A DNA stretch of 64,000 bases from Tribonema minus. Its lineage: Eukaryota > Sar > Xanthophyceae > Tribonematales > Tribonemataceae. Under the pieces are notes generated by a model. That model searched no databases. It was not told the DNA's origin and worked only from the letters and a program-made list of their open reading frames with translations. Positions 724 to 60,413 of this stretch are shown here, piece after piece. Each line of letters begins with the position of its first letter. Position 1 is the first letter of the stretch. The stretch lies in contig JAFCMP010000547.1 in assembly GCA_017506865.1 (NCBI GenBank), positions 124,001-188,000 of the forward strand, in the 5' to 3' direction. The translations under genes and the position numbers were made by a program.

Positions 724-2794
724 CTATTGGCTGTATTGCTTGGCTTCCTCCTCTAGCTCTGCCCTGACCTCCTTCACAGTGGCCGCCGCATCAGCACCCA
801 GTGCCTTCTCAAATTCTGCGAGCTTATCGGAGGCTGCTGCTAGGGCATCAGTTACAAACAGCGCCTGCGTAGAGTCCAGCACCTTGATGCGCTGGCCCTG
901 GTTTTAAACAACAGCGGCAAAGAGACATGATGGCAGAGCGTGATGTTGTGATAAGGGCGAAGGGGCTTAATAAATAGTGTGAATGTGGAAGCTACATGTG
1001 AGGCATGGTGCTGAGCGCTGCCACCGTGTCGCTTGCACCTGCCGTGCCGCGCAGCAAAGCAGTGCTGAAGACAGTGTGCAAAACAGTGCAGCCGGGGAGA
1101 TTGCATACAGTTGAACAACCACAGCCTTGAAAAGTGCGGTCACAGTTGCTGGCAATTGAACCGTGACGTTTCTGTGGCGGAAAGTGCAATCATTGTAACA
1201 GGCGATTGAACCGTGACGCTTCTGTGGATGTTGTGGAGAATCGCTAGTGTGGTATGCTACATGATGGGCTACCGTTGCACGCATGTCCACAGAGTCCAAC
1301 CTACACAAGTACTTCGAAGTATGAATGTTCACTTGCGTTGAAGGCTTCTGGAGTGCGCATCAGCGCCTGCCAGTGACTGCGTGAAGCTACCGGTTGAGCT
1401 GAGCTGAAGCGGCCATGACAGAATGCATTCCACAGGGTAACTTGGCACAGGACTGCACAGCAGCTGTAAACCGTGTTTGGGTTCAACGCAAGCGGTCTGT
1501 ACAGACAGCCATCTTTACGCCAGATCATTGCACTAGCCTCCGCCGATTGAAAGTGACCCTGGGATACTTGTGATCTTTTGACATCACCATACGCAGTCCA
1601 ACATCTACTGCTGGCCCAAATCACCAACAAGAACACTCGCACTGAGCCTCGCACTGACCGTGGTGTTGTTGATGCGCTCCGGGAAGAAGGGTTAGGGTTA
1701 GGGTTAGCCTCGCACTGACCGTGGTGTTGTTGATGCGCTCCGGAAAGTAGCTGAGCATCAGGTCAAAAAGCTCCAGGCTGTCGCGCGCCAGCGTCCGCGC
1801 CTGCTCCCTGGACGCCGTATAGAGCGCTGCCTGCTGCAGCGACTCCTCTAGCTTGTAGTTCTTGATGAGGCCCTTCACCAACACCTGCGGTGCGGTAGGG
1901 CCACAATGAATGAGCAATCAGCATTCTCACTTTCGGCTGAAGCTCTGCAGTGGCTTGTGGACAGTAGATCCAAGAAGGAATGGCGCTGGTCTGCGATTCA
2001 CCAACTGTGTGTTGATGCACACTCCATGAACTACAGGCTGCTGAAGCAGTGTTCGATGCTAAGGCCCTCTGTTTTCGCTATTAGTGTTTGGGGCATTGGA
2101 ATCAGCGCACAGCATACTGGAACTCTGCACTGATAATCGACACCCATACCTTGAGATCGCCATACTCCCCCTTTGCGATGTCATCCTGCAGCTGCTGGCA
2201 GGACTGGCGCACCCTCTCCACTGACACGATGCAGTCCTGCGCACAAAGTAACAGAACGATGTCAACCAGGCCAACGTGAAAACTTGCTGCTACGATTGAC
2301 GGCACGAGTTGAGTGGCGAGGTCTGCAGACAGAGTCGTCCTGTGTGCAATAGTGCTCGCCCAAATTGACTGTCCCAGTGAGGTGTGGGGACGCAGCAGCA
2401 GCTTGAAGCAGGTGAAGAAGTGTGCGCTACCCCTGAAGTCAGCAAGATTTGAACACAGTTCAACACCCCCGACTTGTGAAGGCATTTCTTACTCATACAT
2501 CATCAATGCGACTACCTTGAGCGGCTTGGTAGGCGCCTTTGCAGCGTAAGCGGGGGCAGCAGCGAAGCTTATAGACGCCAACGACACAGCAGCGCTGCAT
2601 ATTTGAGACAGCGCCGCCCTTCTGCTGCTCCGTGGATCTTGAAGGGACATGATGTGTGTTGCTGAAGCTCTGGCTTGCATGTGGCGTTGCCGACAGCTTA
2701 TGCCACCGAAATCACGTAGAGAGGATGCCATGAAAGCATCCGCCACCGCTGCAAACGCCGATGCAAACGCCACCAACGCCGATCTGCGCATCAT
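724..2794 (-). CDS. Plastid-targeted thylakoid-lumen protein (PSII extrinsic-like helical protein)
   Basis: Four exons on the minus strand: 2794-2516, 2236-2150, 1884-1720 and 897-724, all phase 0, giving 234 aa. Residues 1-20 form a signal peptide ending ADA before Phe21, the hallmark of ochrophyte plastid import. Residues 56-85 form a second signal: SRR twin arginine, a hydrophobic stretch, then AYAA. This predicts Tat export to the thylakoid lumen. The mature ~149 residues are charged and helix-rich (VERVRQSCQQLQDDI, YFPERINNTT, and a terminal KLAEFEKAL helix). Size, targeting and helical character recall the PsbQ or Psb31 extrinsic photosystem II subunits, but no diagnostic motif is visible, so the family is inferred. 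ATG 2794 was chosen because it sits just before the signal peptide; the frame is open further upstream (to 2884), but that adds a non-targeting N-terminus. Divergent from the helicase gene at 3129. Confidence 0.75.
1645..1743 (-). repeat. Duplicated 3' edge of lumen-protein exon 3 with telomeric spacer
   Basis: The last ~24 nt of exon 3 with its GT donor and first intron bases (1707-1743) recur almost exactly at 1645-1682. The two copies are separated by a (TTAGGG)3-like tract at 1688-1707. The real exon end is the copy nearer the exon body. Confidence 0.85.
1688..1707 (+). repeat. Interstitial telomeric tract
   Basis: About three TTAGGG units, placed exactly between the two copies of the duplicated exon edge of the lumen-protein gene. 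Confidence 0.9.
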
Positions 2795-3128
2795 GACGTC
2801 AGCTGCGCACCAGGCACTCGCCAACACCAACCACCTGTTGCACGCTGTGTCAGCCAATGTGCAGCGATCCAACGGCCACTTCAACAGCTCAGCCGCTGAT
2901 ACAGATAGTAAAAAGAGACTGCAGCCTCCACAGGAACTTCACCTTCATACTTCCAATCCAAAGTTGATGTTGTGAAGTCCAGAGAGAGCTCTCACCCTTC
3001 TGGCACACCGTGAAGCCGACCGCGAACCTAAATACCTGGTGTAGATTCACAGATATCTGGTGCACCAAGAAAGGAGCCATTCCAGCAAGTAGGCAGAATT
3101 AGACTGTTCGGCTGGCGGAGCATCAACT
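2795..3128. promoter_or_regulatory. Shared divergent intergenic region
   Basis: The start codons of the lumen-protein gene (-) and the Mtr4-like helicase (+) face away from each other across 334 bp. This must hold both 5' UTRs and core promoters. No TATA box is evident, so the assignment rests on geometry alone. Confidence 0.45.
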
Positions 3129-6100
3129 ATGGACCTGGATCTGTTCAGTGCTTTCGATGGCGGCGAGACTGTTGCGGAATTGCCTGAGGTTGTAAATGAA
3201 GCGAAAGTGGAGAGCCCGAAGGCGCCAGCAGGAAAGCGAAAAGCAACAGCGCCAGCTGGCGCTGGCGACGGCGAGGATGGCGGCGATGTGATGGAGGACT
3301 CTGTGCTTGCTACTGCAAAGAAAGCCAAAGCAGCGGAGCCGGTGGCGCTGGTGCAGGGAGAGGAGACAGAAACTATACGGGAAGACGGCACACGCGTCAA
3401 GTCCTATTCTGTTGTCCCTGCGGACTGGGTTGCGCCGCCGTACGAGGCGCCGCCTCGGCCTGCGAAAACATACCCATTCACACTGGACCCCTTCCAGGCC
3501 CAGGCCATCAGCTACATTGAGCGGAATGAGAGCGTGCTGGTGTCTGCTCACACTAGCGCTGGAAAGACGGTCACCGCGGAATACGCGATCGCCAAGAGCC
3601 TGAGGGACAAGCAGAGGGTGATTTACACGAGTCCCATCAAGGCGCTGTCCAATCAGAAGTACAGGGACCTCCAGGTGGGCACCACAGACAATAGTCGTAT
3701 ACATTGGAACATCCTATTCATGCTCATTGATTTATCGTCATCTGACTGTTGTAAAAGCATAGAGACTACATGCTTGAGTTATACCGTTGCACCAATGCGT
3801 TGTCCGCTTCCACAAGTCAGGGACGGGCACGTTAGCATTTGCCATCCTGAATGTGTGCGGTACAAGTTCAGCAGTCATCAAGGAGCACTATATGGCTCTG
3901 CAACGTCATTTTCTTGATAGCATCACCATGCTTGTTATGGCATCCCCTGTGTGCCACGCACAACAGCACACTGAACAGAAAGCGCAGCGATGATGTGCGA
4001 CACTCTTGAGGCCACTACATCAGAATACAAAGCACAATTCCAATCATGTCAGCGCCCCTTGGGCAACACCACCGCATGGCTGGTCCTGGTGCGGGGAGTG
4101 GCAGGCGTGCTGTATCGTTGCCCATGAGCCCTGCTGCTGGAGCAGTTGAACTTCAGGCGGCATCAAGGTTTGCAAGAGTGACAGCAGATGCGTTTGGTAA
4201 ATGGTGAGGGCCGTGCAGAGAAGTCACTTTGTATTACCCTTTGATGTTGCTTCATGGGGCCTCTTTCAGACAGTGAGTGCCCCGTGCCGTGATGAAGGTA
4301 GCCTTCCTGCTCTGACCTCCAGGTTGTGGGCGCTGTCGCAGGCGCTCTTTACAGACATAGTCCCATAGGACTATGAATCCACAAGAACCTGTGTGTAACT
4401 CTGCTTGCCTCTGACCACGAGCTGGAGTCTGTGCCTCCACCTTCGCCCTGCCCATGACGTCGCGGGAGGAATTTACAAGACGTGGGTCTGATGACGATCC
4501 TTTTTATAAGAGCCTGTGCAATAGCACTCGCTCGCCATTAGCAATAACTCAAGTCTGTGCGTCCACCCTTCGCCCTGCCCACGACGTCGCAGGAGGGATT
4601 TGGCGACGTGGGCCCGATGACGATTCCATCAGAGCGTGTGCGACAGCACTTGCTCGCCATTAGCAATAACTCAAGTCAGTGCCACCGCCATTGTCTACAT
4701 CGGCCATGATGTTGCAGGAGGAGTTTGTGGGCCTGATGGCGCTTTCATAAGAGCCTGTACAACAGCACTTGATCGCCATGGGCACGAGCTCAAGTCTGTG
4801 CCTCCACCCTTGTCTACGCCGCCCACGATGTTGCAGGAGGAGTTTGGCTGCGTGGGCCTGATTCCATAAGAGCCTGTACAATGACACTTGATCGCCACGG
4901 GCACGAGCTCAAGTCTGTGCGTCCACCCTTGTCTACGCCGCCCTCGATGTTGCAGGAGGAGTTTGGCGATGTGGGCCTGATGACGGGCGACATCACCATC
5001 AACCCCACCGCCACAGTGCTCATCATGACCACGGAGATTCTGCGCAGCATGCTGTACCGCGGCAGCGAGGTGATGCGCGAGGTGGCGTGGGTCATCTACG
5101 ACGAGATTCACTACATGCGCGACAAGAGCCGCGGCGTCGTGTGGGAGGAGTCCATCATCCTGCTGCCGCACAAGGTGGGTGTGTATGCGCATGTATGTAG
5201 GGTATGTTTGCACTGTTTGCGTGGCCAATTGCGTCGTGTGGCAGGAGTCCATCATCCTGCTGCCGCACAAGGTGGGTATGTATGCACATATATGTAGGGT
5301 ATGTATGCACGGTTTATACACATGGGCACGCCGCCCGCAATATTGCACATGGACTGTTGTGGATATGGTGGCACTGTTTGACGCGTGGCCAATTGCCGCA
5401 GCAGCGGCGACCACGGTTATTGGTGGAAAGCCTTCAGCTTGACGGCTGACCGCACCTTGTCGCCTAGAGCTCTACGATCTCTTGATTTACTTCCATGTAT
5501 GTATAGTGGGGTACGGTACCATGGGCCGTTTGTGCGCGATCTGTTACATGAGGAGGACAGGAGCGAGGGGTGTGTGATGTGGGAGCACTTTTCCTTGCTG
5601 ATGCTGCACACTGTATGTAGGTACTTGCATATGGGCGTGTGCAGTGACGATGCTGGTGCATCAGGTGCATGCTGCAGAATCACGGAAGCCTCGTTGCGGT
5701 GCGCATGTGGCGTGGAGCACTGCGCACCGTTGAAAGTGGCAGCGAACAGCACAGGCGCGGTTGGAGCAGTGTTGTTTGTGTGAGGCGCGTTTTGATCGTT
5801 CTTATGTGGTTGTGTTGCGCACAACTCTTTGTGCTGGCGTCCGCCGCCATGTTTATCGTAGCTTCACTTCTATTTGAAGTGTGATTATTGTTGGCATGAA
5901 AACACGTCTGACAATGTGAGGATGAGAGTAGGTGAGACATGAAGAAGAAGAAAACGGGGAGCCTGTCATGCTGCTGCCGCATGATGTTGTTGCGCATTCG
6001 TATGCCGTCGCTACTTGAAGTGACGCGCTGACTGACAACTTCAAGGAAGCATGGATATCCTCAGCTCGAACTGCGCAAAGTATCCTACGTGATGTGAGAC

Positions 6101-9100
6101 ACTACTGCTACGTGCCTTCATTGCTTGAGGTAACCTGCCGTTGCTGCTTGCAGTACATCTGGAGAGACCTGGAGGGGCCATGCTATGAACTCAAATCACG
6201 TCTCTCGCAAGTATAAACAGATGCAGAGATGCTGTTGTTAGCGGATCAATATCTCCAGCAGGCCGAGGCCCTATCTACATCTATCAGGGACTCCTCACCG
6301 CCGAAGCACGGTGCTGCAGCGCACTATATGCATGCGACCTGCATATGAGACACTGGCGGTGCGGACGCAGCCCTACTGCAGCTGAGCGCGTGCGTCCCTT
6401 GCCAGGTGGTGCGCCAGAAAGCGGGCAGTTGTATCATGGACACGAATCAAAAGATCGTAGAGCTCTAGGTGACAAAGGATGGTTAGCCGCAAGTGCCCTC
6501 CACCAATAACCGTGGTCGCCGCTGCTGCAGTCATTGGCCACGAGCCAAACATTATGGTGTTGTCAATGCGATGCAATGCACGCACCTCGATACCTGCAAG
6601 ACACACGCCTAGTGTATTCAAGACTACTTTGTGTAATGCAATGCACACGCCTCGGTACCTGTAAGCCCTCAGTAAGACATACACGCTAGTGTATCTAAGA
6701 CTGTGTGTGCGTAAGGCGCACCAATGTGCGTGTTACAGGTGCACGCGCCGACAAGAGCTGGACGCACAGTAGCTTGCGTGGCGCAAGGCATCAATCACCG
6801 CCCGCGCTCGCCTCGTGGTGTTATTTGGGAAAGCAGAGCGTTTGGCAGCGGCTCCCGCGGCCCCATCTCATGGCAGCGCTTCGTTGATGAAGGCTGGCTT
6901 CTAGTGAGTGTTGGTAATTCCGGTCAATGCGTTCAGGGCCCCATTCACATGCCCCCAGTGCCGAGTACCCCCGTGCCGCAGCGGCAGGGGGTTGTGGGCC
7001 TTCCGTTGTCCAAACACACGACCCGAGATCTTTCAGCAGGCGGCCTGGCTCAGCAGCACTTCAACACCGTGCGTGAGGTTGTGGGTGGGGGGCGCAGAGG
7101 TTGCGCTTGATGCAACACGCATCGCACCGCAGTTGCTGGGGGACCTCGGGCCGTGCGTTTGCGCAACGGAAGACCCGCGATCCCCTGTGGCTGCTACGCC
7201 AAGGCCGCTGCGCGCTGGGGGCATGTGATTGAGGTCCTGAACGCATCGGTCGGAATCACCGACTCACGAAACAAGCTAGTTTGCTGATGAAGTGCTTGTG
7301 TGCGATGGACCCGCGGAACTGCTGGTGAACTCTGCTTCTCCAAATAGCAGCATGCGGCGAGCACCTAGCTAGATCGTGCCCGTGGATGTCGCATGCCCTA
7401 ACCCTAAGCCTAAGCCTAAGCGAGCCACCGGCCGCTCCCTGGCACAGAAGCCATTGGACTTGGCATACGCCGCTTGTTGCAGCTGCAGTAGTGCTAGGGT
7501 TAGGGTTAGGGTCAGGGTTAGTCCTCACCTCCAGCATCTGGTAGGCCACACGGGCGCGGTTGGCTGCAAATGCCACTAGCATGGTTCTGCAGCGACATTT
7601 GTGACTGCCTGTCCGAGATGCTGAGCGAGCATAGCGTAGCGCAAAAGTCGTGCAGCCTTCATCTATTACATTGCAACACGTGTATGTCTCAGAGGGCCAA
7701 AGCTCGCGTCCTGCACAACATTCACGCGAGAGATGGCCTGTGCTGTACCAGCGCGCATCAGAACGGTTCCTTGACAATCCTTGTACGGTCTGCTTCTTGT
7801 GCGCGCCAGATGGTCAACACTGCATGCATACGATATGCACAACTCTGCTTGTGTGGAATGTACATCTGCCCTCTTGTCCTCCCGAACATCGCCAATATCC
7901 CCGCTCATCGACATGGGAAAATGCTCAATTTGCAACAGACGTGTTCCTGTTGCACTGTGATTTGTGTGCACAGCACTGCAGGCATACGGTATTACACCCT
8001 TGCTCATGTGCACTCTGTTGATCGCCACGCCAGTACCTACCTACCCCGGCACATCCACCCCATGCGCACATCTCACCAGACCTGCTCATTGACATGTACG
8101 CTTTGCCATTTGGCAATGTCATTGAACAGTGATCATCAATGCGCTCTGAGACAGTTTCAAGGTCTGTACACGTAGAATCCGGCAGCAAGCTGGAGGACAT
8201 CCACATCTGGGCTTTGTCGTGCCCTAGGCGAGAATAATGAATGACAATGAATGACGCGCCCTAAGCGAGAATAAATACAAAGTGCACGCTCAATTTGTGG
8301 CTCGCTCTGTGTGCAGGTCCGGTTCGTCTTCCTCAGCGCCACCATCCCCAACTCGCGCGAGTTCGTCGCGTGGGTGGCCAAGCAGCACCACCAGCCCTGC
8401 CACGTCGTGTACACGGACTACCGCCCCGTGCCGCTGCAGCACTACCTCTTCCCCGCGGGGGGGGAGGGGCTGCACCTCGTGGTGGACGAGAAGGGCCGCT
8501 TCCTGGAGCAGAACTTCCAGGCTGCAATGGCGACGCTCCAGGTAACTGCCGCGATTGTTCAACTATGCATGACGCCCTAGGATTGCATCACACCATGTTC
8601 GTGCATCACACCATGTTCGAAGTATGTACTTTGAAGCACTAGAGAAGGGGCGCTTCCTGGAGCAGAACTTCCAGGCTGCCATGGTGACGCTCCAGGTAAC
8701 TGTCGCGATTGTTCAACTGTGCAAGTGACCACCCTCAGAATGCATCACACAAGATTCAGAGTTCACAGGGTATGCATCGGAAGAGGAGCGCTTCTTGGCA
8801 GCAGAACTTGAAGTTCCAAGCCGCCATGGCGACGCTCCAGGTACGTGTTGCGACTGTCCACGTACTTCACGTACCTGTAGGAGCTCCAACATTGCATGCA
8901 GTGTTTGACTGAAAGGTGCCCTCACCAAAACCATAGCCTGCAGAATTGCTTCGGTGGATCAGAGATTGGACAGTGTCTGGAGCAGAACTTCTTGTTTGCC
9001 ATGGCGACGCTCCAGGTAACTGTCGCGGTTTCTCAACTGTACATGACGCCTTAGTATTGCATCACACCATGTTCAAAGTATGTACTTCGAAGTATTAGAG

Positions 9101-12100
9101 AAGGGGCGCTTCCTCGAGCAGAACTTCCAGGCCGCCATCGCCACGCTCCAGGTATGTATTGCGATTGTTCAATTGATTCAAATCAATTAGAAGTACCATA
9201 ATATATCAGGGATCAGGCAGTGTGCAGAGCAAAACTTCCAGGCAGCCATGGCGACGCTCCAGGTACTTGTGGCAGAAGCAGACCGTTGTACTTGCAAGAG
9301 CCCAACATGGCGTGCAGTGTTTGATGCCAGATGCCCAGCTGAAAGGTGCCCTACCGAAACCATACCATGCAGATTTACTTCTGTGTATCAGAGATTGGGC
9401 AGTGTCTGGAGCACTTCCTGCCTGCCATGCCACGTTCCAGGTACCAATTATCTTCTCTTCGTACAGATTTGACATTTCTACAGCTAACGCCCGTGCTCTC
9501 TTCCCTTTCAACTGTCACATCGCTCTTGCATGTGCAGTGTACATTGCAGAGTTGCAGCCGAGGTACTTTGAAGTGCGCACATGTTTCATCTGTTATGGGA
9601 CACTTGCAAGTGGGCTGTTGTGCCCACAACCTACAGATGATCAGACGCTGGTGGCCAGCTCATCAACAAGCATCCTGCTGATCTACCTCCGAAAACATAT
9701 ATATGTGTGCTTACTGCCATACACATTGTGTATGCACGTTGCGGTGCGCGCAGCCCACGGATGAGCAGACGCTGATGGCCAGTCAAGAAGCTCAACAAGT
9801 GACACTCCGCTGCTGCTCATGTGGAGCTCACGCCTGTTCCCCGCACTGTTGTCCCTGCAGCCCACAGATGAGCAGATGCTGATGGCGCAGGGCAAGCAGG
9901 CCATTGATAATCGATTGATAAGTATCCTCTGATATACCTATGAAAGCTCATACGTGTGCTTACTTCTTTACACACGCTTGTGTATGCTTTTGTGGTGCCT
10001 GCAGCCCGCGGACGAGCAGATGCTGATGGCGCGGGGCAAGCACGTTATCGATACATATCCTTCTGATATACATATACATGCGCTTACTGCCATGCAATTA
10101 TTCATGCGTGTTGCCGTGCGTGCAGCCCACGGACGAGCAGACGCTGATGGCGCAGTGCAAGAAGCTCAACAAGTGACACTCCGCTGCTGCTCACGCCCTC
10201 CGTATAAACTTCACATTGCACCAGCTCACGCGTGTTCCCCGCACTGTTGTCCCTGCAGCCCACGGACGAGCAAACGCTGATGGCCCAAGGCAAGAAGCTC
10301 ACCGGCGCCAAGAAGCAGATGCAGACCGGCGGTCTGAAGAAGATTGTGGCCTTAATAATGAAGAGGCAGCTCGATCCCGCCATCATCTTCAGCTTCTCAA
10401 AGAAGGTGGGTGGGACAAGTGCAGACTTGCACGGTGTTTGCGTCTCCCGTTGAGTACTTTTTCGTTTTGAAAGTGGAGGTGGTGGCTGTGCTAGGTTAGG
10501 GTTAGGGCTAGGGTTATAGATGTGGTCCGAGGATGCGCAGCGCCTCCAGCTGTGAGCCGCCGATGCGCATACGCATATATACATATGTGTGCAGCATACA
10601 AGGCAGCGCAGAAAGCAGTTGCATCGCAATGCACAGCACCCTGACAAGTTGATGGGATGTTAGCATCAGCTCCACATAGTTGACTTCATGAATCACATCG
10701 ATGCTCACATCTCAGCTCTCTGGTGCAGACGGCTCTGCTCGGCTTCTGCCCCCTAGTCTGCTTTCCATGACAAACACAACTGCAACGTGCCTGGATGACA
10801 TGTACTCCGAAATATAGACATGCATGTGCTCTCACCAGCATGATTCTGCACTCGTTATCGTGCTCGCTTGTAGTGCAACGGCTCAGCATTGTCTTCAAGA
10901 GGCTTTGCACCCCCCCCCCCCCTCCCCCTTCCCCCCCTCCACAGGAATGTGAAGCCAACGCGCTGCAGATGAAGGGGCTCACTTTCAACGACCAGACAGA
11001 GGGTGACCTGGTGCAGGAGGTCTACCGCAACGCCATGGAAGCACTGTCCGAGGAGGACAAGACGCTGCCGCAGGTAAATACATGACTCAGAGTTGGCACT
11101 CAAGTATCGGACAAGTCTCAAACAGAGTCAGCATAGTTGTTGCTCGGGGGTTGAGAGCTCCGGGGCTTGTCAAGACGCTGTCCCAGGTACAGACCTTATT
11201 CAGAGTCGGCACTCAAGCATTGGACAAGTCTAACATAGAGTCAAGTAGAGTCAGTGCTCAGGTGCTTGACATGGAGGCGCTGTCTAAGGAAGACAAGACG
11301 CTGCCACAGGTACATAAACGACTCAGAGTCAGTACATAAATGACACAGAGTTGGCACTCAAGTATTGGACAAGTCTCACGCTGAGTCAGACACAGTCAGT
11401 GCTCAGGGCCTTGACAGGACGCTGCCACAGGAAAATAACTAACTCATAGACAGTGCTCAGGGGCTTGCCAGACGCTGCCACAGGTACATTGTGCTTTTCC
11501 AGATGTAAAGCAATGAAGTCGGCCTCAATTGGCATTGAAATCGTTACTCGAGCGCAGCCGACTTTGGGATGCAGAAGCAGCTGCTGCATTACATGGAGGC
11601 GCCTGACAGAGAGGCCACAAGAATGTCCCATGTAATTGTTTGCATTAGTCAGGTCTGAAGCTCTTCTGGGGCAACAGAGAGCAGACGTTTATTCAATGCA
11701 AAAATTATAATGTGACGTCATTGCTCATACAGAAGCCTTCCGAGCTCTTTCAATGGGCTTTGAATCGACCAGTTGTCAGTGTCTGTTGAGCATTGGTTGC
11801 GTGGCAGGTGGCCTTTGCAGCAGCCGCCTGAGACACATTGAACCAAACCGCTGCTGATCTCTCAAATGGCTTCTTGCAATCCATTGTGTGTGGCAGGTGG
11901 AGGCGCTGCTGCCGTTGCTGTGCAGGGGCATTGGCATACACCACGGCGGTCTGCTGCCCATTCTCAAGGAGGTCATTGAGATACTGTTTCAGGTATGTTG
12001 TAACGCAACTTCGCCCCATGGGGCGGTTTGTTTATTTTTGCGAGATTTACCCGATGGGCACCGGTTTTTTTCTGTTCGCCTCTGCGAATGGATTCCTTGT

Positions 12101-34982: not shown

Positions 34983-35073
34983 GGTGGTGTGTCAAGCTAT
35001 GAACAAGCAAGCGCCCTGCCCAAAACTTTGACGGTTACAGATCGAACTTCTGTCATTCTCTGTAATTAGTGGT

Positions 35074-36490: not shown

Positions 36491-36540
36491 GCATTGTACA
36501 GACGACTACACTCATGCATTGTACAGACGACTACACTCAT
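36491..36540 (+). repeat. Perfect 25-bp tandem duplication
   Basis: Two identical 25-bp units begin gcattgtacagacgactaca and lie head to tail. No function is apparent. Confidence 0.9.
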
Positions 36541-48478: not shown

Positions 48479-48790
48479 TGCACCAGCGGCACGCCTGCGG
48501 CTGAGATCCAAAGCTGCTGTTGATGAGTGTGCTACTGCAACTGCGAAAGGTGCTCCTGTCAAGATACCACAGGATACACAGCGACGATAAAAATTCCTGG
48601 CGTGCGTCGAATGAAGTGCCTGATAGACGGCAGCTGTTGCAATGCTTCAAAAACCAGTATCGTAGCTTCGATACGCGCTTGCTACAGAACTGCTGTTCTA
48701 GTTTCCAAGATTGGCGAACTTCAAGTGCGTGAGCCCTCCACGTGGAAGGCAGTCAGTGAGAGTACAGCTGAATAACGGCGCGTCTCGTAC

Positions 48791-51700: not shown

Positions 51701-53973
51701 TATGCCTGAGAGGGCCGCGGCGCGGAGAAGCCGTTGCGATTGCTCCGGCAGCAGTTCGGGCTCAACAAGCAGCGTCGTGAACACCTTGGCCAGGTGATGA
51801 GCGAATGCCGGTTCCATCACATCTGATTCTGAATCACCAGCTAGTCCTGGCGAGGCACTGCTCACGGGGCGGGTGGCTGCTTTCACTGGTGCACCAGGCC
51901 CAGCGGCCATCAAGAGGTGTTCATAGCGTAGGCCGTCCAGCCCTCCTGCCTTCCCCGCCCCTGCTGCGGACAAGGTCGACAGTATGTCTGCCGCCTCCAC
52001 CTCGAGGCGCCGTCCGGCTGCGCTGGCAGCATCCTCAGGCCTATCGCTGTGATCATGTGCCTGACCCGATTCGAAGACAGGACTGCCGCTGCCAGCTGGC
52101 CCGGTGGTCGTTGCCACCCCTGCGCTGTGTAAGCAGTGCCGCCGGGCGTCGCGTACCAGGCCGCGCACTTGCTCCATTGGCGTATCGACTACCCCCGGCC
52201 GGGTGCCAGTTTCAGGGTGCTTTGCTGCCAGCACCTGTGCCGTGACCTCGTCTGCTGGGGCGCATGCTTCACGCGCCTCTAGTCGTGCGGCAGCCAAGCC
52301 TACCCCCCGTCGCTTGCCTGAGAGGGCAGCGCATGCTGTTTGCTGCCTGGAGTCAGCCTCCGTCCAGTCGGCATCGAAGTTCGTTTGTGCCGACGCCATA
52401 GCTGCGTTGTTTGGTTTGGGGGCCCGCAGCGCCGCTGCTGCTGACAGCGTCTTTCTCAGTAGCTCCGCGAAGTCGCCAGACAGCAACGCTGCCAGCCGGG
52501 CCGCAGGCGGCATACCGGTTCCCTCCGGTTGCCTACCAAAGGCCATCGCTGCTAGCAGGTGCAGCAGCCTGTAGCCGCGCTGCACTAGAGTCTGAGAAAC
52601 CTGATGAGCAAACGCCCCGGCACCATGGTGGAGGCGCACCCGTGCCGCCTCACGTGCACTGTCTGTGGCGTCCGCCAGTAGTCGTGTGGCGTGCTCCACT
52701 AGCCGTGCCCACTGGGTGCACTGCAGCTGAGTGCGGAAGGGGTTGGCAGTCGTGGTGAACCGCAGCAGCAGTAGATCCGCCTCATTGGTCTGGTCAAGTG
52801 CGTGGACGACCGAGGGCGTCGAGAGGTCCCAAGCCAGGGATGCTCGTGCCTGGGGCTTTGAGGGCCTGCCACTGGTGGTGGTGGTCGGGGGGGGCGGTGA
52901 CGCGGCATCGTCCGGCGGGTCCACGTCCATGTCCGCCCATCCCACGGCCGTCCCGCGGGGGGGGCTGCTGTCCTGCAGCCTCAGGCTGTCAGACTGAGTG
53001 CGGCTGCCGGCGCTGCTAGGCGGTGCCGCAGCAGCTGCCGTTCGGCGCCGGCGTTGCGCGCCGGTTGCCGTGGCCGCCGGGCGTTTCTTGCTAGACTTTG
53101 AGTTGGCAGCGCCACTAGCCGGCACCGCCGGTAGTTTTGGAGGTGTCGCTGCGGCAGCCCCCGCCGCCGCGGCCGCGCCGTCGCTACCCGCACCCCCGCC
53201 CTCGGACTGGCCCGGGGGTACTGCCGGGCGTGCGCGCGTGGGGGCGCTTCCATTCCGTCGACACGTGTGGCATGGCGAGGTCAGCGCGCATTGCCTCTGC
53301 CCCGCGCTGGCTGACATATGGACCAGGCCGCAGGCACCTGTGCATGCACTCAGCTTCCTTACCGCCCGTAGGAAGTCTTCTGCCGTGCAACCATACATGG
53401 TGCTCATCTCCTGCACATGCTTGGCATGGTGTGCCCCAGTGCTGCAGGTACTGCTGCCTGAAGGGGCACGGTCACCGGATGGGTCGTGATCAACCTGCTG
53501 CCGGATGCCCTTGGCGTATGCTGCCGCCGGATTTTGCTGACAGTGTGATGTGCTCGCCTCAGGGTTCAGCATCGACCTCGTGCAGCTACCACCGTTGAAG
53601 TGGGCCACTACCGGTGCCATGCGGCTCGCAGCTGACAGTTTGCCTCGCTGTTTGCTGTCCTCTTTCTGACCAAGCTGCCAAAATGCCAGTGTGCATAGTG
53701 GACACCTCAGTGGCTCAGGCTGCTGTGGCAACTGCAGCGCAGTACGGGGCTGTGTCCGACTCGGAGCCGTGATGTGGGTGCTGTCAGCTTGAGTGGTCGC
53801 CGACGCTGTCATAGTGGTTGGCAAGGGCGGAGCTGCCGCAGGGGCGACAAGCAGTTCAAAGTGTCCCACATTTGTATATAGCCCAGGCGGCGTCCACAGC
53901 ACATCCAGATGGCAGTCAGGCTGAGCTGGAGTCGCCGGTGCGAATACCGCTGGCAGCCCCATCAGTTGTGCCA
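48791..53973 (-). mobile_element. LINE (non-LTR retrotransposon) with restriction-like endonuclease, apparently recent
   Basis: About 5.18 kb on the minus strand, flanked by a perfect 13-bp direct repeat gtacgagacgcgc (minus-strand sense; 53974-53986 and 48778-48790) read as a target-site duplication. It contains one uninterrupted ORF and a 78-bp 3' UTR. It ends in a 43-bp tail (48791-48833) without poly(A), and that tail recurs alone at 35081-35123. The long intact frame and perfect duplication suggest a young insertion. The 5' end may be truncated. It sits in the intergenic space between the DUF1990-like gene and the RluA gene. Confidence 0.9.
48869..53962 (-). CDS. LINE ORF: reverse transcriptase with CCHC finger and C-terminal endonuclease
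   Basis: 1697 aa from the first Met inside the element (53962). The open frame continues to an ATG at 54007, but those 15 codons lie in or beyond the target-site duplication, so they are probably flank. Order: an N-terminal Cys/His cluster (LRCPLCTLAF and following), Pro/Ala linkers, and a central reverse transcriptase. The RT shows RRPIACSSVWRR, then QLDCENAFNSVD (~residue 820), GCQQGDPLGPLYF and the active-site FLDDLN (~925). A C-terminal CPWRCSD...THAISC zinc finger precedes a restriction-like endonuclease with YRADTVIDPG and IVLDTSV. RT followed by CCHC finger and PD-D endonuclease is the order of the R2/CRE/NeSL/R4 group of LINEs. The exact clade needs a tree. No APE endonuclease or RNase H is seen. 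Confidence 0.9.
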   Translation of the reverse strand: MGLPAVFAPATPAQPDCHLDVLWTPPGLYTNVGHFELLVAPAAAPPLPTTMTASATTQADSTHITAPSRTQPRTALQLPQQPEPLRCPLCTLAFWQLGQKEDSKQRGKLSAASRMAPVVAHFNGGSCTRSMLNPEASTSHCQQNPAAAYAKGIRQQVDHDPSGDRAPSGSSTCSTGAHHAKHVQEMSTMYGCTAEDFLRAVRKLSACTGACGLVHMSASAGQRQCALTSPCHTCRRNGSAPTRARPAVPPGQSEGGGAGSDGAAAAAGAAAATPPKLPAVPASGAANSKSSKKRPAATATGAQRRRRTAAAAAPPSSAGSRTQSDSLRLQDSSPPRGTAVGWADMDVDPPDDAASPPPPTTTTSGRPSKPQARASLAWDLSTPSVVHALDQTNEADLLLLRFTTTANPFRTQLQCTQWARLVEHATRLLADATDSAREAARVRLHHGAGAFAHQVSQTLVQRGYRLLHLLAAMAFGRQPEGTGMPPAARLAALLSGDFAELLRKTLSAAAALRAPKPNNAAMASAQTNFDADWTEADSRQQTACAALSGKRRGVGLAAARLEAREACAPADEVTAQVLAAKHPETGTRPGVVDTPMEQVRGLVRDARRHCLHSAGVATTTGPAGSGSPVFESGQAHDHSDRPEDAASAAGRRLEVEAADILSTLSAAGAGKAGGLDGLRYEHLLMAAGPGAPVKAATRPVSSASPGLAGDSESDVMEPAFAHHLAKVFTTLLVEPELLPEQSQRLLRAAALSGIGQKRRPIACSSVWRRLLGSTAARSVKGKISGLLASMSQFGVGYRSGVEHVAARARVWHELYGTTIQLDCENAFNSVDRAAIVRGLMLFCPELLPHFESVYCGDTAPEMRVEVNGEARIICSHLGCQQGDPLGPLYFAVAAAFLLFYPDGVNATPGSMPAYGHSTAEPPAPHCAFLDDLNVLQAAYFDDAAAAGVAEVIRRLAAGGLRVRPDKSLAIAMRGTVFDEAARARLRALDIPFVDTTMPESSQGFTSVGVPVGHPAYVHAAMSKHLVDAGTWRLSWQLAGMARHHLQAAQFILRRSLTKRMGFLARVVDTALSETWLHAFDGFCAWTLERMLHLHGCSTAAAMKSHLLAACTAGDNEEASSGSVLVLPRLGPPELTDIAVPLRASRLPERRGGLGMPLLGLLAPAAYTAQACTTLRPAIIHATVAAGALRLGTDEHGAVTWFAQHSCAIREDQGLPPIIEAVRRSTRALTADGGEKSRTAVAEQLPASLLRWAADTTAAASTLPTAVQAIYAATAVTETVTTEPAPHTHGIVPGAEAAAAAATVPGPQAAAAAAPSTPAKTQTSAEESSCSGGQEDDDDDWEAYADEICRKVVPRRRRGHFTHGLQAGLSNVLRRQYEDCLVEDLEAASAGAVGKPTQAAPIGDSRDTSRRRQQASARVLAQLRSQRASGAMAWMSVPPTANDRPGAAPMSSMAAATMILIAIFIDGWGIQGEVCPWRCSDVSPTSTHAISCPSQHIRGHNATHTAQKRCLQRILRQHHVSIVRNEDASVFKVPGYRADTVIDPGCLHFSSAYRNKGIVLDTSVRAPTASSNLTGRTNASNTDGYAAGVGEDAKVKHHTGTLTSSWAFVPFVQESYGRLGKQTSLFVKELAMHSALCSGGGKADVLRKAGLAKRQILIELSISLARELAERVMAYTRGARMLGCVAAPVSKLLGHSAD

Positions 53974-54007
53974 GCGCGTCTCGTACATTCCAGACATTAC
54001 ATGACAT

Positions 54008-54498
54008 ACCATGTACTCATCTTCGTTGCATAGATATTGCAATGACTTGCACATTCGTCCGCGGGACATTGGCAGGGTCTGCAGCCAAAGCTGAACTGGC
54101 ACAGCAGCAGCCAGGCTGTGGGCACAAACAGGCAGCTTCAGGCTAGGATCTTGTTGTGCACATTTGCTCTTGGCGAAGCAGACAGGTGTGTGGCTGCAGT
54201 GCTGATCGTCTGGACATGTACGCTCACCACTGTTGCTGATGAACCTGAGGGTTGAACTGCTGGCCGTTCAGGTTCGCACCTGAGGCCCAGAGGGAACATC
54301 CAATGGTGAGGGCGTCTTGACATCAACCATGACAAGGCAACGCCTGATGGTCATGGTTCAAGCTGCATCCAGTCCATGGACACGCATAAAGCACGCGCCG
54401 TTAACTTTTGTGTGTCGCAATGATATGTCCTTCGAATCAACATTTGCAACAAAGACGCATCCAAGCACATCAGCAGCACCCGATAGGTACACCAGACT
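54008..54498. other. Intergenic region between the LINE and the RluA gene
   Basis: Contains the 3' end of the RluA transcript and the 5' flank of the LINE. No exon or repeat is recognised. Confidence 0.5.
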
Positions 54499-57400
54499 CT
54501 ATTTGTCGGACGGAGGGCCGATCGCGTTCTGTGCGAGCTTCGCCAGATTCAACGCGGCCGCAGCGTCCTTCACCCGGACCTTGGGCTTGGCCATCTTCAG
54601 TGCGCCAGGCGCGCTCGCTCGCGTCCGCTTCGACGCAGCAGCGCCGTCGGCCGATGGCCTCGCACCACCCGACGACACTGCAGCAGCAGCAGCACTGGCA
54701 CGAACGCCACGACCGCCAGCGGCAGCGGCAGCGGCACGGACGCCCGCGGCCGCGCCGGCAGCGGCGGCGGCAGCGGCGGCGGCAGCAGCGCCGTCCGCGT
54801 CGGCGGGCAGCTGCGGCAGCTTGCGCGCAGCGTCCGGCCCCACCACATCGCTCAGCACGCGCCACATGTCCGCGGGCAGCGGCGCCACCAGCACGAGGCG
54901 CGCGTTGGTGACGGGGTGGTGCAGCGTGAGCGACAGCGCGTGCAGCAGCGGCCGCGCGACGCCGAGCGCCGCCGCCGCCGCGCGCGCCGCGCCGGCGTCG
55001 CCGCCGGCGCAGTAGGTGACGTCGCCGATCACGGGCGCGCCCGCGTGCAGCAGGTGCGCGCGGATCTGGTGCTGGCGCCCGGTGGTGATCTCCACCTGCA
55101 GCGCGCGGAGGCCGCCGCTGCCGCTGCTGCTGCCGCTGCCGCCGCCGGCAGCAGCGCTGCGCGGCAGCGCCTTGACGCGCGTGAGCGCCGGCTTTACGTC
55201 TATTGCTGAAGCGGTTTGTTGCTGCTGCTGCTGCTGCTGCAGCTGCTGAGGCGTTGCCACCGCCATCTTGCCGCTGGCGCGCTTGTATAGGGGCGCGTCA
55301 ATGGTGTAAGGGCCGGTGCCGTCGCCGCCGCTGTCAGCGGGTTCGAGGGCGCAGCGCGCAGGGTTTGGCAAGCCAGCTGTGACCGCCAGGTAGGTCTTGC
55401 TGACTTTCCGCGACTTGAACATCGCCGAAAGAGTGCTGCTGGCCTGCACGTGGAGGCGAAGTAGGGTGAGGCCGATAGCGTTTCAGAGTGGCAAGGTGTA
55501 GCGCCCTGATGGATATTGGTGGACACATCTGCACCATGCGCGTACCAAGCGCGAGTCATGTAAAGCGCAAAACTTGTCTGGCCAAGCGCAGGTGATGAGA
55601 AGTGGAAAACTTGTCCGGTTGCACTGGTGCCATTGCAACTGAAGCATGACAGAGTGCAAACCTGCCACAACTGCCTTGCTGTCATAACCATGTCACTGAT
55701 ATCCAAATTTTGCGATGCGCAGCACGCCCCCTGCACGCAGAACCTTGCTGAAGTAACTTGAAGTTGCAGTTGACCCTGAAAACCCCTGCGACCATACACT
55801 TAATCCTGCTCTTCAGATCCAGATGCATGATAGCTCGTGCAGCAGCAGACAGGAGACCGTCAGCGCGCCCCGAGGTTCTTGTCCACAATTACGTCTCATA
55901 TACTTCCACTCAATTCTCTTCCTCAAATTCAGATGCATTGACTTGTGCGAGCTCGTGCAGCAGCATGCAGACACCGCCGATGCACCTCCTCAGGTTCTTG
56001 GCTACGATGCCAGAAAACCCCTGCAAACATACACTCATCCCTGCTCTGCGACCACGGATGCACGACAGCACATGCAGCAGCATACAGTGATGATCAGCAT
56101 ACCTCGAGGTTCTTGGCCACGATGACAATGCCGCTCGTGTCCCTGTCCAGCCGGTGCACCACCCCCTGCAGCAGCCCCTGCGCCGCCACCTCGTCCCCCG
56201 CCGCGCACTCCCCGCGCGCCACCATGTGGTGCAGCACGCCGTTCAGCAGCGTGCCGCGCGGCTGCGACGCCATCGGCTGCACCACAATGCCCGGCGGCTT
56301 CGCCACCACGATGATGTGCTCATCCTCGTAGACGACGTGCAACTTCAAATCTTGCGCGGGGAGCTGTTCGCTGGGCGGCGCAACGGCGTCCGCGGCGGCC
56401 GCGGCCACCGTGATGGTCTGCCCGGGCCGCACGCGCACCAGCCTGCGTGGTTTGACGAGAGGTGCGGGGTATGTAGGTATGGGCGCAGCGGGCTGTAAGC
56501 TTTTGGAACCCTGGTTGTGGGCAGTTGCCAGGGCCTAGGCCTGTGCCATGCCGTGGTGCCCCGACAATAAGACGTAAGCTGTGGGCTGGTACAATGAGCC
56601 TTACGCCTTGTGAACTATTTCATCACAGCCATAGCAATTGCAAATGCGGAGCAGGATGCTAAGCTGGATGTAGACTGGGCCGTGGGGTTGATTGTATCAG
56701 CGATGTGTCAATCCTGTCCATTGCCGTGCGAGGGGTTCAATAAGGCACCAAGTAGCCAGCATGTTGTGTACAAATCGATTTTGACTAGAACTCAACCAGG
56801 CGGTCGCATAATAGCGGTGCGGACGATAGGTCATAGCTACCATCAGAACGACAGACTTGACAGACAGGCAGCAACGCCCCATACTCCTGTTTCAGGCTGT
56901 AGGTCATACACTTGACCAAATGTCATGAGACATGCTATACAAGCAATTACAAAAACGTCACAGCCACAGGTGTAAACAGCAACTGCGGCTGCTCAACACA
57001 CCACTATAAAAAGCTGAACTACAATTAACTGCGTGTGGAATGCAGAATATGCAGGGTGACAGTGTGGTCCATAATACAAGAAACCCTTGGCGGCAATCCT
57101 AAGCCTGCGGCTCAACGCTACAACGCACCTCTTGTTCACCCTCCCGTCTATTTGCACATTCCCATCCGCGAGCTGCTTCCGAAAGAAGCGTCTGCATTCA
57201 TATGCAAGCAGGGAAGCGATTGATCACATTGGGCAACAGCTCAGGTGTCTGTATGGCAAGTTCACAAAATGCAGCGGCAACACTAACACTTTCACGTGAA
57301 AGCAAAGAAGCATGATTCTGCTGAACAGAGCAGTCGTGTTCAAATTCCTGTCAAACTGGTCAGTGCACATTGCCTGGCTCAGCAAGTCCCTGAGTGCACG

Positions 57401-57983
57401 CACAGCTATGATTTTCTTCGATTGTTTTGCTGAACAAATCATTCAGTCTTTTGATTCGTTTTCATTCAGTAGCTTGACGGCAAAGACTGCATGAAAGCTT
57501 CTTCCTTCTTATCATTAAGTGTAGTGCTATGGATGAGCAGTCACACCATATCAATCAATCGAGTTCTTGACAGACACGACGACAGATGAACTGCAGAACC
57601 TTCAAACGCAATAACATTTATGAACAAAATCCCCATCCAAAGTAAGCAAACTTCAACGCTGACTCTGGTCAAAAAGGCTTGCATGCTCCACAATAGTTTT
57701 TCTCGTGTCGTTCGCACCTGCTTCTATGCGGCAATTTCCTGCTCAGCAGCCAGTCGATTGGCGCATTGCCGTCCTCCTGCTCCACTGTTATCCGCTCTCC
57801 CGTAGCTGCCATTCGCAATGGGCGAACATTTCTGCGGCTCTGCCCAAGCCGATGGCACCGGCTGCATAAGGTTATAGAAGTTGGAGTAAGACTGGTGCGC
57901 CCATGATGTGCTGATTGAAAGCCGCTGCAGGACCTGCTGCTGAGTAATCCCAGAGAGATCAGCAATGATGGTGCGCTCCTCAT
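54499..57983 (-). CDS. Plastid-targeted RluA-family pseudouridine synthase
   Basis: Four minus-strand exons: 57983-57718, 57191-57129, 56442-56103 and 55443-54499, joining in phase to 537 aa. Residues 1-~24 (MRSAPSLLISLGLLSSRSCSG then Phe) form a signal peptide with Phe at +1, and a basic transit region follows, predicting the plastid. An S4 RNA-binding domain (APIDWLLSRKLP, RRFFRKQLADGNVQIDGRVN, LVRVRPGQTI) is built from exons 1-3. The catalytic signature HRLDRDTSG, with its Asp near residue 209, is in exon 3. Exon 4 carries the SKTYLAV strand, the VEITTGRQHQIRAHL motif and LHALSLTLHHPV. The C-terminus is a long Ala-rich tail ending PPSDK. It isomerises specific rRNA or tRNA uridines; the target is not predictable here. 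ATG 57983 is chosen because the frame's upstream start is TTG. An internal Gln run (QQLQQQQQQQQ) is unusual for the family. Confidence 0.93.
55870..56128 (-). repeat. Donor-edge copies after RluA exon 3
   Basis: The exon-3 end (plus strand cctcgaggttcttggccac) recurs at about 55879 and 55988 with ~110-bp spacing. Each copy has similar intron filler (gaaaacccctgcaaacatac, catgcagcagcata). Confidence 0.88.
57431..57480 (-). repeat. Possible fragment of dispersed intronic repeat (copy F)
   Basis: Contains cttttgattcgttttcat and a nearby cttgacggc, both matching the family in inverse orientation. It is in RluA intron 1. Confidence 0.4.
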
Positions 57984-58219
57984 AATATTCAACTTCAATG
58001 GCGAGGTTGAAAGGCGCGCCCAGCTAGCACGCAGCTACGCAGCGTCGCGCAACTCTTCGCCGGTGAGAGACCTGCGTGCCCTATACAACCGCTGCAATTG
58101 CCTGTGTTCTCAAGATCCACCACGCCTCAGTCGTGACACACACACACCTCATCAATCTTCAAGTTCCTGTTGAAGTGCCGGTGTTCAGTGTGTGTGTTCA
58201 CTCGTATTCCTCATAGCTC
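57984..58219. promoter_or_regulatory. Shared divergent promoter region of two plastid-protein genes
   Basis: Only 236 bp separate the start codons of the RluA gene (-) and the two-helix plastid protein (+). A short (CA)n tract lies near 58137-58147. Both products carry plastid signals, so co-regulation is plausible but not shown. Confidence 0.5.
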
Positions 58220-60413
58220 ATGCTCAGACAGGGTTTTTTACTGGTGCTGCTGGTGTGCGCCTTTGCGGCGCCATGCCTGGGCTTCGTGGGTGGTGCTAGA
58301 ACACTCATAGCGCAGCAGCAGCGGCAACTCTGCAGATCATGCGCATCAGGCATGACACACAATCGGAGGCCGTCGCTGTTGAGGGCGGAGTCAGGGGATG
58401 AAGACGCTGCCGCTGCTTCTCAGCCAGTGTCCGTGGCTGAGGAAAAGAAGGAGGAGACGAAACAGGAGGTGGTGCCCATGGACATGAGCTTGCCCACTAT
58501 AAACCTGGACGCCAAGGATCAGGACAAATCCTACCCCATCGGTGAGCAGCGTGCGTGTTTACTAAGCCACGAGTGGGCTGCACGGCAAGCTTAATCGTCT
58601 ATGTGAGCGAGCACTAGTTGGCCTCACCTTAACACTGACGGTGCAAGTGCCAATAGTCACGCCTTGAACGCTGGAGACATTCAACAGCCTGTACCTGTAC
58701 ACTCGCTGCCCCCCAGTCTTTTGGCAGAACTCTTGAAGTGGGCTAGGGGACAGTTGCGGAGGAGGCCCTATCTGAGCTTTACCCGTAGATAGCGTCATGA
58801 TAGTAGTGGGTGTTTGTGTGTGCTCCCAGAGCAGGGCTGCACAAGCTCGAAGGAGCATACGCATTGTATACGACGTGATGGAGAATAGGGTTTACGCCCC
58901 TCAAGCGGAAGTAATACAGTACACTGGTAAGGGTACCCCTGCATTGAAGCAAGTACCAACGGCCTCCTTCAGTTTTGGCAGAGGACGCTTCGCACAGTTG
59001 CATGTAAAGAACTTGAAAAAATATGCAACTGCAACCATATTGGTGCACTGTAGAGCATTGTCCACTAGTGCAAGGTTTGTGCTGTGCTTGCCACGACAGC
59101 ACCAAACGCTCAACCTAGGATTTGGATGGTCTAACGACTCACCTGGGACTCATGGGTACTCAACTCAACACTGCCAAACCTCCTGCTGCACCATGCTGCG
59201 AGCCTAGACAGGGGTTGCATTCTCGCTGCAGTCAGCATCATAAATTCTTTCAGCAAAAGCATATTGCCGTGCGCTGGTGATTTTGAACACTGCTGATATG
59301 CAGCGCTCGATCAATCAACACGCTGGTGAGTGTCACACTTCAAGTTGAAGTACTTTGTGTTGCATGCTGGTAGACCTGAGCTCAGAGGTTCGCCATTCAA
59401 GTTTCCTGCTTTCATGTTCTCAACCTCCATTGTATGCGGTGATTGTTCATTCTTCCCAGATTTTCCGGCCTATGGTCTCTTGAGTCTCTCAACGGTGGTG
59501 GCGATAGCCTTTGTGGGGAGCATATTTGAAGTTGCGGGGCCCAGCCCGCTGGTGAGTGCGCTGATCTTTTACGATCTTCCAGTGCATGTGCACCTACAAT
59601 AATGGTATAGATGTGCCCCAATGTATGTGCACGGCACAAATAGTGCACTCTGGCGTCTTGCAGAATGTTAACAATGATGCGTACTTGCATCTACAAACGC
59701 TGCTGCAACGCCATCGATTGGGAAACCAATTATTTCATGCCCTGCGCAAGGATGGCAGTGTGTGTTATGCAGGCGGGTAGAGGGGGTAATGTCCATGAAA
59801 ATGGGACATCGCCTCACTCTATTCGAGCAGGCATTTTCTGGTACATTGTTGAAATCCTTGGCATGCGCGGTTACTGACTGCTGGTATGCTGCGCGTAGTG
59901 ACTGACGTCTGCATATGTACAACAGGCCTGCAAAGCTGAGCCAGAGCGACCTCCCCCTGCAGTCCGAGCATCATCACCCTTGCGAATCAGTGAACTTCAC
60001 ACATTTTGGTGTGTACTAGTAATGCACAATACGCTCATGAATCAACGACTTCCACACACTTCTGGGCGTAACAACGCGTGACCTTGTGTGTTGTGATGCA
60101 CAATGCGCTCATGCATCAATGACTTACACACACTGCTGGGCGTAACAACGCGTGTCCTTGCTGCCTGTACAACACCTCTTTCACCTGCACAAAAATGTGT
60201 GATACTGCACAATGCGCTCATGAAACAACGCCTTGCACACCCTGCATTGACGTGCTCGTGCTGCCTGTGCAACGCCTTTTTCATTTGCAGCTGGGCTACG
60301 TGCCCACGTACATCATTGGAGCGCTGTCTCTGCCTGGTTTCATCTTCCTGTTCTATGCGGCAATCAAGAAGGGGCAGGCTGAGGCCGAAGAGGACGACGA
60401 CGACTTCTACTAG
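58220..60413 (+). CDS. Small plastid-targeted protein with two membrane helices
   Basis: Three exons: 58220-58541, 59460-59551 and 60291-60413, joining in phase (a GAT codon is split by intron 1) to 178 aa. Residues 1-21 are a signal peptide (LLVLLVCAFAAPCLG) followed by Phe22, then a basic Ser-rich transit region, so plastid import is predicted. After an acidic spacer comes a mature domain of ~75 residues starting DFPAYGLLSLSTVVAIAFVG. It has one hydrophobic helix in exon 2, a second in exon 3 (YIIGALSLPGFIFLFYAA), and a charged end KKGQAEAEEDDDDFY. This layout suits a small thylakoid or envelope membrane subunit. I do not recognise the family. No enzyme motif is seen. Confidence 0.78.
60005..60292 (+). 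repeat. Tandem units at the 3' end of intron 2 of the two-helix gene
   Basis: Three units of about 85-110 bp, each with atgcacaatgcgctcatgaa, an acacactgctgggcgtaaca-like block and ctgcctgtacaacacc, precede the exon-3 acceptor. The last unit ends in the real tttgcag. Confidence 0.85.

Follow-up and report, generated by a model that had tools for sequence, protein, structure and literature searches.

How do introns lengthen where no transposon supplies the added sequence? Intron lengthening is usually attributed to transposons. The question arises at a 64,000-nucleotide stretch of the xanthophyte alga Tribonema minus (hereafter the window: positions 124,001 to 188,000 of contig JAFCMP010000547.1, here C544, in the 158-Mb, 554-contig assembly GCA_017506865.1), where the genes for Mtr4, a DExH helicase, HSP60 and RluA carry introns with degenerate direct copies of their own sequence, many of which include an exon edge and its splice site. 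This mode of growth is real, genome-wide and intron-bound. The introns of this alga likely lengthen by recurrent tandem duplication of host DNA, probably via the repair of staggered breaks.

Introns contain direct copies of their own exon edges

Comparison of the window with itself yielded 100 pairs of direct repeats no more than 3 kb apart (E<=1e-3), part of them of low complexity; 70 pairs, covering 15.8% of the window, were left after a complexity filter and at E<=1e-5. A dinucleotide-resampled control, with one copy each of the window and of 20 arbitrary 10-kb stretches, gave no repeat pairs. The original prediction, a reading of the bare sequence, had counted more than 25 arrays. We find about 32 when the 100 pairs are grouped by eye, some of them without an exon edge, and 25 copied exon edges in the four modelled genes (Mtr4, DExH helicase, HSP60 and RluA) under a looser rule of at least 8 nt of exon and at least 4 nt of intron. 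Tandem Repeats Finder recovers head-to-tail arrays of one unit at 4426-4981, 27166-27562, 42039-42570 and other places.

Repeats occur in 31 of the 46 introns that we modelled (34 of them defined by homology, as set out below) and take up 32% of intron bases, with more repeat in longer introns (Spearman 0.54). Among the homology-defined introns 21/34 have repeats, and 15/34 have a junction inside a repeat with at least 8 nt on both sides. The self-similarity of exon edges stands out against shuffled introns, as resampled introns gave 0 matches at each of four thresholds. In the full set a junction lies inside a repeat in 25 introns (15 donors and 16 acceptors, both in 6 introns). The 46 introns hold 46 arrays, 37 of which touch a junction as against 17.3 expected from random placement over the intron and up to 150 nt of exon. 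With probes made of the exon side of each edge alone, 29 of 92 edges (17 on the donor side and 12 on the acceptor side) proved to have a direct copy in the intron next to them and 0/92 an inverted one, with a match in other introns in 1 of 4140 comparisons. The units are host sequence and differ from intron to intron, 42/46 introns matching nothing outside their own locus in the ~322 kb compared.

The self-duplication of introns extends past the window. Inside it 9/12 homology-defined introns have repeats and 8/12 a junction within a repeat, as against 12/22 and 7/22 outside, so that the window is richer than the rest; about 28% of intron bases outside it are self-duplicated (a sum of rounded per-intron values). 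In the 20 arbitrary 10-kb stretches 11.5% of bases lie in such repeats, and of 73 arrays 30 cross the predicted end of an exon, where circular shifting gives 10.3 +/- 2.6 and reached 30 in none of 2000 shifts, although this test partly reflects the arrays being in introns at all. The five repeat-richest stretches (L007, L008, L014, L016 and L018) each have a Pfam match (6 of 10 frames tested, 4 blank), namely ABC transporter twice, WD40, FGGY kinase, tubulin and AAA; ten further frames, nine of them from repeat-poor stretches and one from L020 at 13%, gave 3 matches, two of them below the curated cut-off. Profile searches also matched the same exon edge twice at adjoining places in 4 of 6 MCM genes, in PF00118 genes on C5, C51 and C135 and, for example, in the kinesins of C246 and C511; no doubled exon edge was seen in the HSP70 profile table.

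The repeats are concentrated in introns

In the introns of the four modelled window genes 31.8% of bases lie in repeats, as against 0% in four intergenic stretches of the window (5.9 kb) and 0 of 9704 window positions more than 90 nt inside an exon. When sequence was searched in pieces of similar length, 37 arrays turned up in 38.6 kb of introns and 2 in 26.8 kb of non-genic DNA (P 6e-7), or 0.96 versus 0.07 per kb, an approximately 13-fold difference. The non-genic arrays comprise none in the 5.9 kb between assigned genes, one in 10.9 kb of unassigned window DNA and one in L019, a 10-kb stretch without a predicted exon. A 1715-aa reading frame at 48869-54016 (-) is free of short-range repeats. 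So is the spacer between the Mtr4 and DExH genes, of which 22100-25300 (3.2 kb) matched itself alone in a genome search and is therefore not a recent transposon. The features on which these statements rest are as follows, the working splice sites being those suggested by homology:

3129-22002 (+): Mtr4 gene, 14 exons modelled, the last three by gene finder alone
Mtr4 exons 1-7 (+): 3129-3674, 4956-5174, 8317-8541, 10259-10405, 10945-11073, 11897-11992, 13025-13165
Mtr4 exons 8-14 (+): 14235-14450, 15716 or 15809-15877, 16595-17026, 18471-18695, 19745-19981, 20855-21043, 21814-22002
4416-4985 (+): 3' edge array, unit of ~119-126 bp, Mtr4 intron 1, probable working acceptor 4955/4956
5134-5315 (+): 5' edge, two copies at 97-bp spacing, Mtr4 intron 2, probable working donor 5174/5175
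8488-9443 (+): 5' edge array, Mtr4 intron 3, donor 8541/8542
9668-10301 (+): 3' edge array, Mtr4 intron 3, acceptor 10258/10259
11034-11433 (+): 5' edge array, Mtr4, donor 11073/11074
13130-14264 (+): 5' edge copy and 3' edge array, Mtr4 intron 13166-14234
16052-16620 (+): 3' edge array, Mtr4, acceptor 16594/16595
18651-19143 (+): 5' edge copies, Mtr4, donor 18695/18696
21530-21827 (+): 3' edge array ahead of the last modelled Mtr4 exon
22003-25389 (no strand): control spacer between Mtr4 and the DExH gene, no short-range repeat
27165-27562 (+): 5' edge array, four units of ~102 bp, DExH helicase, donor 27216/27217
30227-30476 (+): 5' edge copy, DExH helicase, donor 30279/30280, no homology detected in its 90-nt spacer
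33679-34068 (-): intron-only array, unit of ~153 bp, coiled-coil gene of the first reading
39096-40354 (-): 5' and 3' edge arrays, HSP60 intron between exons 40311-40478 and 38822-39146
41607-41783 (-): 3' edge copy, HSP60, probable working acceptor 41618
41820-42570 (-): 5' edge array, five copies of a 151-bp unit, HSP60, probable working donor 42492/42491
42839-43084 (-): 3' edge copy, HSP60, acceptor 42900
44317-44762 (-): 5' edge copy (donor 44423) and 3' edge copy (acceptor 44548), HSP60
55775-56126 (-): 5' edge copy, RluA intron, donor 56103/56102
60019-60289 (+): tandem array of a 74-bp unit that stops at a likely 3' splice site upstream of exon 60291-60413, putative lumen-protein gene
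1645-1750 (-): 5' exon edge doubled around telomeric-hexamer filler, likely 5' splice site
1687-1708 (+): interstitial telomeric run exactly between both copies of 1645-1750

Mtr4 intron 3 is an extreme case, with 90% of its length covered by repeats. Six genes had initially been named; edge copies stand in Mtr4, the DExH helicase, HSP60 and RluA, and in the lumen-protein gene the array ends at a likely 3' splice site. The claim of intron-only units in the coiled-coil gene agrees with our inspection, in which no exon was seen in the units at 33679-34068. A further direct repeat at 38475-38874 (-) overlaps the 3' end of HSP60 exon 38822-39146 and is probably the 5' edge array of another intron.

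Gene models and samples

All gene models, in the window and beyond, are predicted from sequence, homology and a gene finder. Mtr4 exons were defined by homologues, those of HSP60 by sequence reading and Pfam matches, and those of other chaperonin genes by exon-by-exon PF00118 matches (n = 56; 11 in the window or outside the stretches examined were left out, and 4 that overlap on the profile were taken as duplicate copies). Intron ends were placed to satisfy GT/AG and the reading frame, with the help of a site matrix derived from these same introns, which gave 33 fits; with two poor ones dropped and three hand-read HSP60 introns added, 34 homology-defined introns resulted (9 in Mtr4, 3 in HSP60 and 22 in PF00118-family chaperonins, the last lying outside the window in nine stretches taken as seven genes). 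A small codon-usage gene finder added 12 introns, all in the window, bringing the total to 46. It reproduced the Mtr4 exons with one exon start different, and it merged Mtr4 with the DExH gene and called inner copies exons (5245-5271, 42192-42263, 42041-42112 and 41893-41991), which we removed by hand. Exons from the gene finder were kept if they measured at least 24 nt and scored at least 9, or at least 12 for the straddle test, which also left out repeat pairs >700 bp apart, arrays of at least 2000 bp and exons wholly swallowed by an array. The arbitrary sample consists of 20 x 10-kb stretches (200 kb) at round coordinates on contigs met in an earlier pattern search, and the window with further stretches (~322 kb) formed the search space for cross-matches between introns and for telomeric runs.

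Once its exons are joined at the junctions given above, HSP60 can be aligned end to end with the Ectocarpus protein (77% identity), and the nearest named protein relatives of the window Mtr4 and HSP60 come from Heterococcus, Ectocarpus and Phaeothamnion, of the brown-alga/xanthophyte group. The RluA gene has PseudoU_synth_2 matches in Pfam; a Pfam scan of one exon of the DExH helicase gave no match, the name being that of the original prediction.

Form of the copies and a proposed mechanism

At 33 of 34 junctions the distance between nearest copies is 70-240 bp, and at the 34th it is 619 bp (middle values 145 and 150); the exon parts measure 9-112 nt. The nearest copies comprise 14 clean tandems, 8 diverged tandems and 12 pairs with a spacer. 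In HSP60 all five copies of the 151-bp unit hold the exon end (26 residues in the first) and the donor; the first copy is joined to the whole exon, and one inner copy is frameshifted.

Some copies are separated by telomeric repeats. At 1645-1750 two copies of ~43 bases each, comprising an exon edge and the first intron bases, flank (CCCTAA)3 with gaps of 0 and 0, and there is no telomeric run after the second copy; another run, at 33796-33836, lies between copies of the ~153-bp array. Short interstitial telomeric runs number 72 in the 322 kb, those at 7493-7521, 10493-10516 and 30626-30670 among them, and occur 12 times in 38.6 kb of introns versus twice in 16.8 kb of non-genic window DNA. Duplicated flanks accompany 19/72 runs as against 188/1500 random points (P 0.002) and 4/29 scrambled hexamers; the strict order copy, run, copy is found at 6/72 runs, compared with 34/1500 random points (P 0.008) and 1/29 scrambled hexamers.

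We propose that introns lengthen as short segments of host DNA are duplicated again and again, in tandem or nearly so. Many of the units straddle a splice junction and comprise exon tail, donor and intron head, or intron tail, acceptor and exon head. To judge by homology, the outermost junction, still attached to the whole exon, would remain in use, and the inner copies would turn into intron and mostly decay. The duplications most probably originate in staggered breaks that are filled in and end-joined, at times with telomeric filler, and later unequal exchange would multiply the copies into arrays; for the preference for introns, breakage linked to transcription or splicing is our leading guess. 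Staggered-break repair with unequal exchange is favoured because comparable mammalian events have been explained by staggered breaks: telomeric runs are described as entering the genome when breaks are repaired, in some cases with a doubling of the target (PMC2246262, PMC7215372), and small tandem duplications as arising by fill-in at staggered double-strand breaks (PMC8355091). A one-sided (polar) growth model was dropped, since 15 donor and 16 acceptor junctions are affected among the 46 introns, an equal share that disfavours a one-sided, RNA-based route.

A more specific version, which we put forward tentatively as a possibility, is that splicing or transcription makes introns hot spots of staggered breaks, with junctions seeding duplications, growth proceeding outward-in at either exon edge and selection retaining a minority of the copied edges as usable splice sites.

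How much of the pattern depends on junctions

Several findings qualify or weigh against the proposed growth by tandem duplication, and we take them together with the alternatives. The repeats had been said to affect every multi-exon gene with sizeable introns; this is true of all four modelled genes, but 15/46 introns have no repeat, 21/46 have no junction copy, and 9/46 arrays lie off the junctions. Spacers without homology to the expected flank separate 12 of 34 nearest copies (P<=0.01), four of these 12 being borderline (0.045-0.07), so that not all copies are clean tandem units. The excess of telomeric filler rests on few cases, given the scrambled-hexamer controls of 1/29 strict and 4/29 of any kind.

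The first alternative is a junction-blind growth of minisatellites in all non-coding DNA, which would take in exon edges since introns are short relative to the arrays. The share spanned by repeats is 34% for junctions and 24% for mid-intron points, and edge copies stay recognisable longer because exons are constrained, which biases detection. With exons masked, 19/37 arrays lie within 10 nt of an intron end. The number expected is 8.4 (P <0.001) if arrays may overhang by 60 nt, 11.3 (P 0.002) at 112 nt and 14.2 (P 0.06) at 150 nt, where the longer edge arrays were sampled too. An early null in which arrays slid only within the intron (expected 1.7) was too harsh and was replaced. The edge preference is thus modest once detection bias is removed and depends on the null chosen, and a junction-blind process accounts for much of the edge excess. 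In the arbitrary stretches 43/73 arrays straddle no predicted exon end, and coverage is 11.5% in DNA that is neither exon nor intron, a label that includes introns missed by the gene finder; where an intron is predicted it is 16%, and where an exon is predicted 13%. However, growth in all non-coding DNA fits poorly with 2 arrays in 26.8 kb of non-genic DNA against 37 in 38.6 kb of introns, and an indifference to junctions with the 37 of 46 arrays that touch one where 17.3 were expected. We therefore regard this alternative as unlikely. The 34% versus 24% and the masked-exon counts lead us to view duplication across junctions, earlier proposed as the way in which these introns grow, as a large part (25/46 introns) and not the whole of a wider intron-bound process, as 9/46 arrays touch no junction.

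Decay of the copies and the fate of decoy splice sites

Duplication leaves behind decoy splice sites and pseudo-exon edges, as had been predicted: edges are copied at 29/92 places, and the decoy scores at least equal to the real site at 20/32 junctions. Most copies differ by about 5-33% plus indels. The second alternative is that these inner copies are functional, serving as alternative or regulatory splice sites under selection. In alignments with at least 12 nt on each side of the junction, GT is retained by 27/31 decoy donors, no better than the 25.3 that exon-side dinucleotides in these alignments would predict, and AG by 25/26 decoy acceptors, compared with 20.9 (P 0.02 over all pairs and 0.10 at one pair per junction), so that the AG of decoys may be slightly favoured. 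Selection against decoy splice sites, which we also considered, is not seen, GT and AG being retained in 27/31 and 25/26 cases.

The exon parts of the copies also lend support to the functional alternative and count against purely neutral decay. They differ by 5.8% at codon positions 1 and 2 and by 15.3% at position 3, and the intron parts by 18%, where neutral decoys paired with a constrained real exon would give roughly 9, 15 and 18%; hence positions 1 and 2, at about 6%, fall below the neutral expectation. Amino-acid changes number 76 against 118 expected, indel events are six-fold rarer in exon parts than in intron parts (0.006 versus 0.0365 per base), and between decoys the ratio of position 3 to positions 1 and 2 is 1.73 (1.26-2.39). 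On the other hand, exon-part indels occur in 16/64 real-decoy alignments (some decoys possibly counted twice), and 48 ungapped alignments contain 2 stops against 3.9 expected at random (P 0.22). That exon parts are less divergent than intron parts is what a constraint on one copy would lead one to expect, and alignment selection together with silent change in the real exon produces a bias that imitates coding constraint. We think it improbable that the copies are functional in general; some inner copies may be partly so.

Two further alternatives fare worse. An assembly artefact, that is, collapsed or stuttering tandem copies, would concern copy numbers, which are known from the assembly alone; it is very hard to reconcile with divergences of ~5-33% plus indels in most copies on several unlinked contigs, with 0/92 inverted copies and with the concentration of copies in introns. 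An introner-like or other mobile element inserting at exon edges, for which one might point to an abundant ~95-bp dispersed element present four times in Mtr4 introns, is scarcely credible: array units differ in each intron, and of the 4 introns that match elsewhere in the ~322 kb (own-locus matches set aside) three share that element and the fourth has a 44-bp match. The HSP60 unit, the sole unit searched genome-wide, was found in its own array and nowhere else in the 158-Mb genome. The introner hypothesis is thus rejected, as the first reading had also concluded.

Relation to known processes

Intron gain by tandem genomic duplication, in connection with which a 2009 study by Gao and Lynch is reportedly cited, likewise involves a short tandem duplication of host sequence within a gene that is neutralised by splicing. 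There, however, the duplicated segment is exonic, with AGGT, and the outcome is a new intron (PMC3443670, PMC2891723), whereas here the units hold an existing exon-intron junction and an existing intron lengthens; no AGGT-flanked duplicated exonic segment makes up a whole intron, the units being exon edge, splice site and existing intron sequence. The small tandem duplications formed at staggered breaks, reported as the commonest short (<100 bp) insertions in human and mouse cells (PMC8355091), are also head-to-tail duplications of local sequence. The direct orientation and adjacency that they imply are found here (0/92 inverted; 22/34 tandem or diverged tandem), but the present copies differ in that the nearest ones are for the most part separated by 70-240 bp, and that they have multiplied to form arrays and cluster in introns. 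The order copy, telomeric repeat, copy at 1645-1750 resembles mammalian interstitial telomeric insertions, of which 4.6% (rodent) or 16% (primate) are stated to carry a target duplication; the passages in question draw no tie to exon edges (PMC2246262, PMC7215372). With introners (PMC9860276) the process shares a genome-wide effect on introns; unlike them it has no shared family or insertion unit, the same sequence family does not recur in many introns, and the sequence is each intron's own. Minisatellites are matched in the head-to-tail array of one unit and differ in their independence from gene structure, as the present arrays straddle exon ends and sit in introns.

Tandem duplication within genes is already known; the genome-wide, intron-bound form described here adds many decoy splice sites, an unusual by-product. 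Searches of the open-licence PMC library, a coverage that leaves out most subscription papers, showed no description of such a genome-wide growth mode. About a third of intron sequence in the modelled genes is recognisably self-duplicated, and the genes abound in decoy splice sites whose scores match those of the sites in use. Hence two questions become testable in one genome: how intron length originates without transposons, and how the spliceosome ignores near-perfect decoys.

Other features of the window

The 1715-aa frame at 48869-54016 (-) resembles, by eye alone, a retroelement reverse transcriptase. A long single frame at 47174-48646 (-) has a DUF1990 match (26.8 versus a curated cut-off of 23 bits), with no array seen within it. 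The ~95-bp dispersed element lies in both orientations, at 5402-5487, 6436-6530, 17287-17381 and 21088-21174 in Mtr4 introns and at 4410-4510 of L015. A genome search returned 2184 first-look candidates, and the 40 that were scored have, at all but the query's own place, 91-95% identity; it is possibly a short non-autonomous mobile element.

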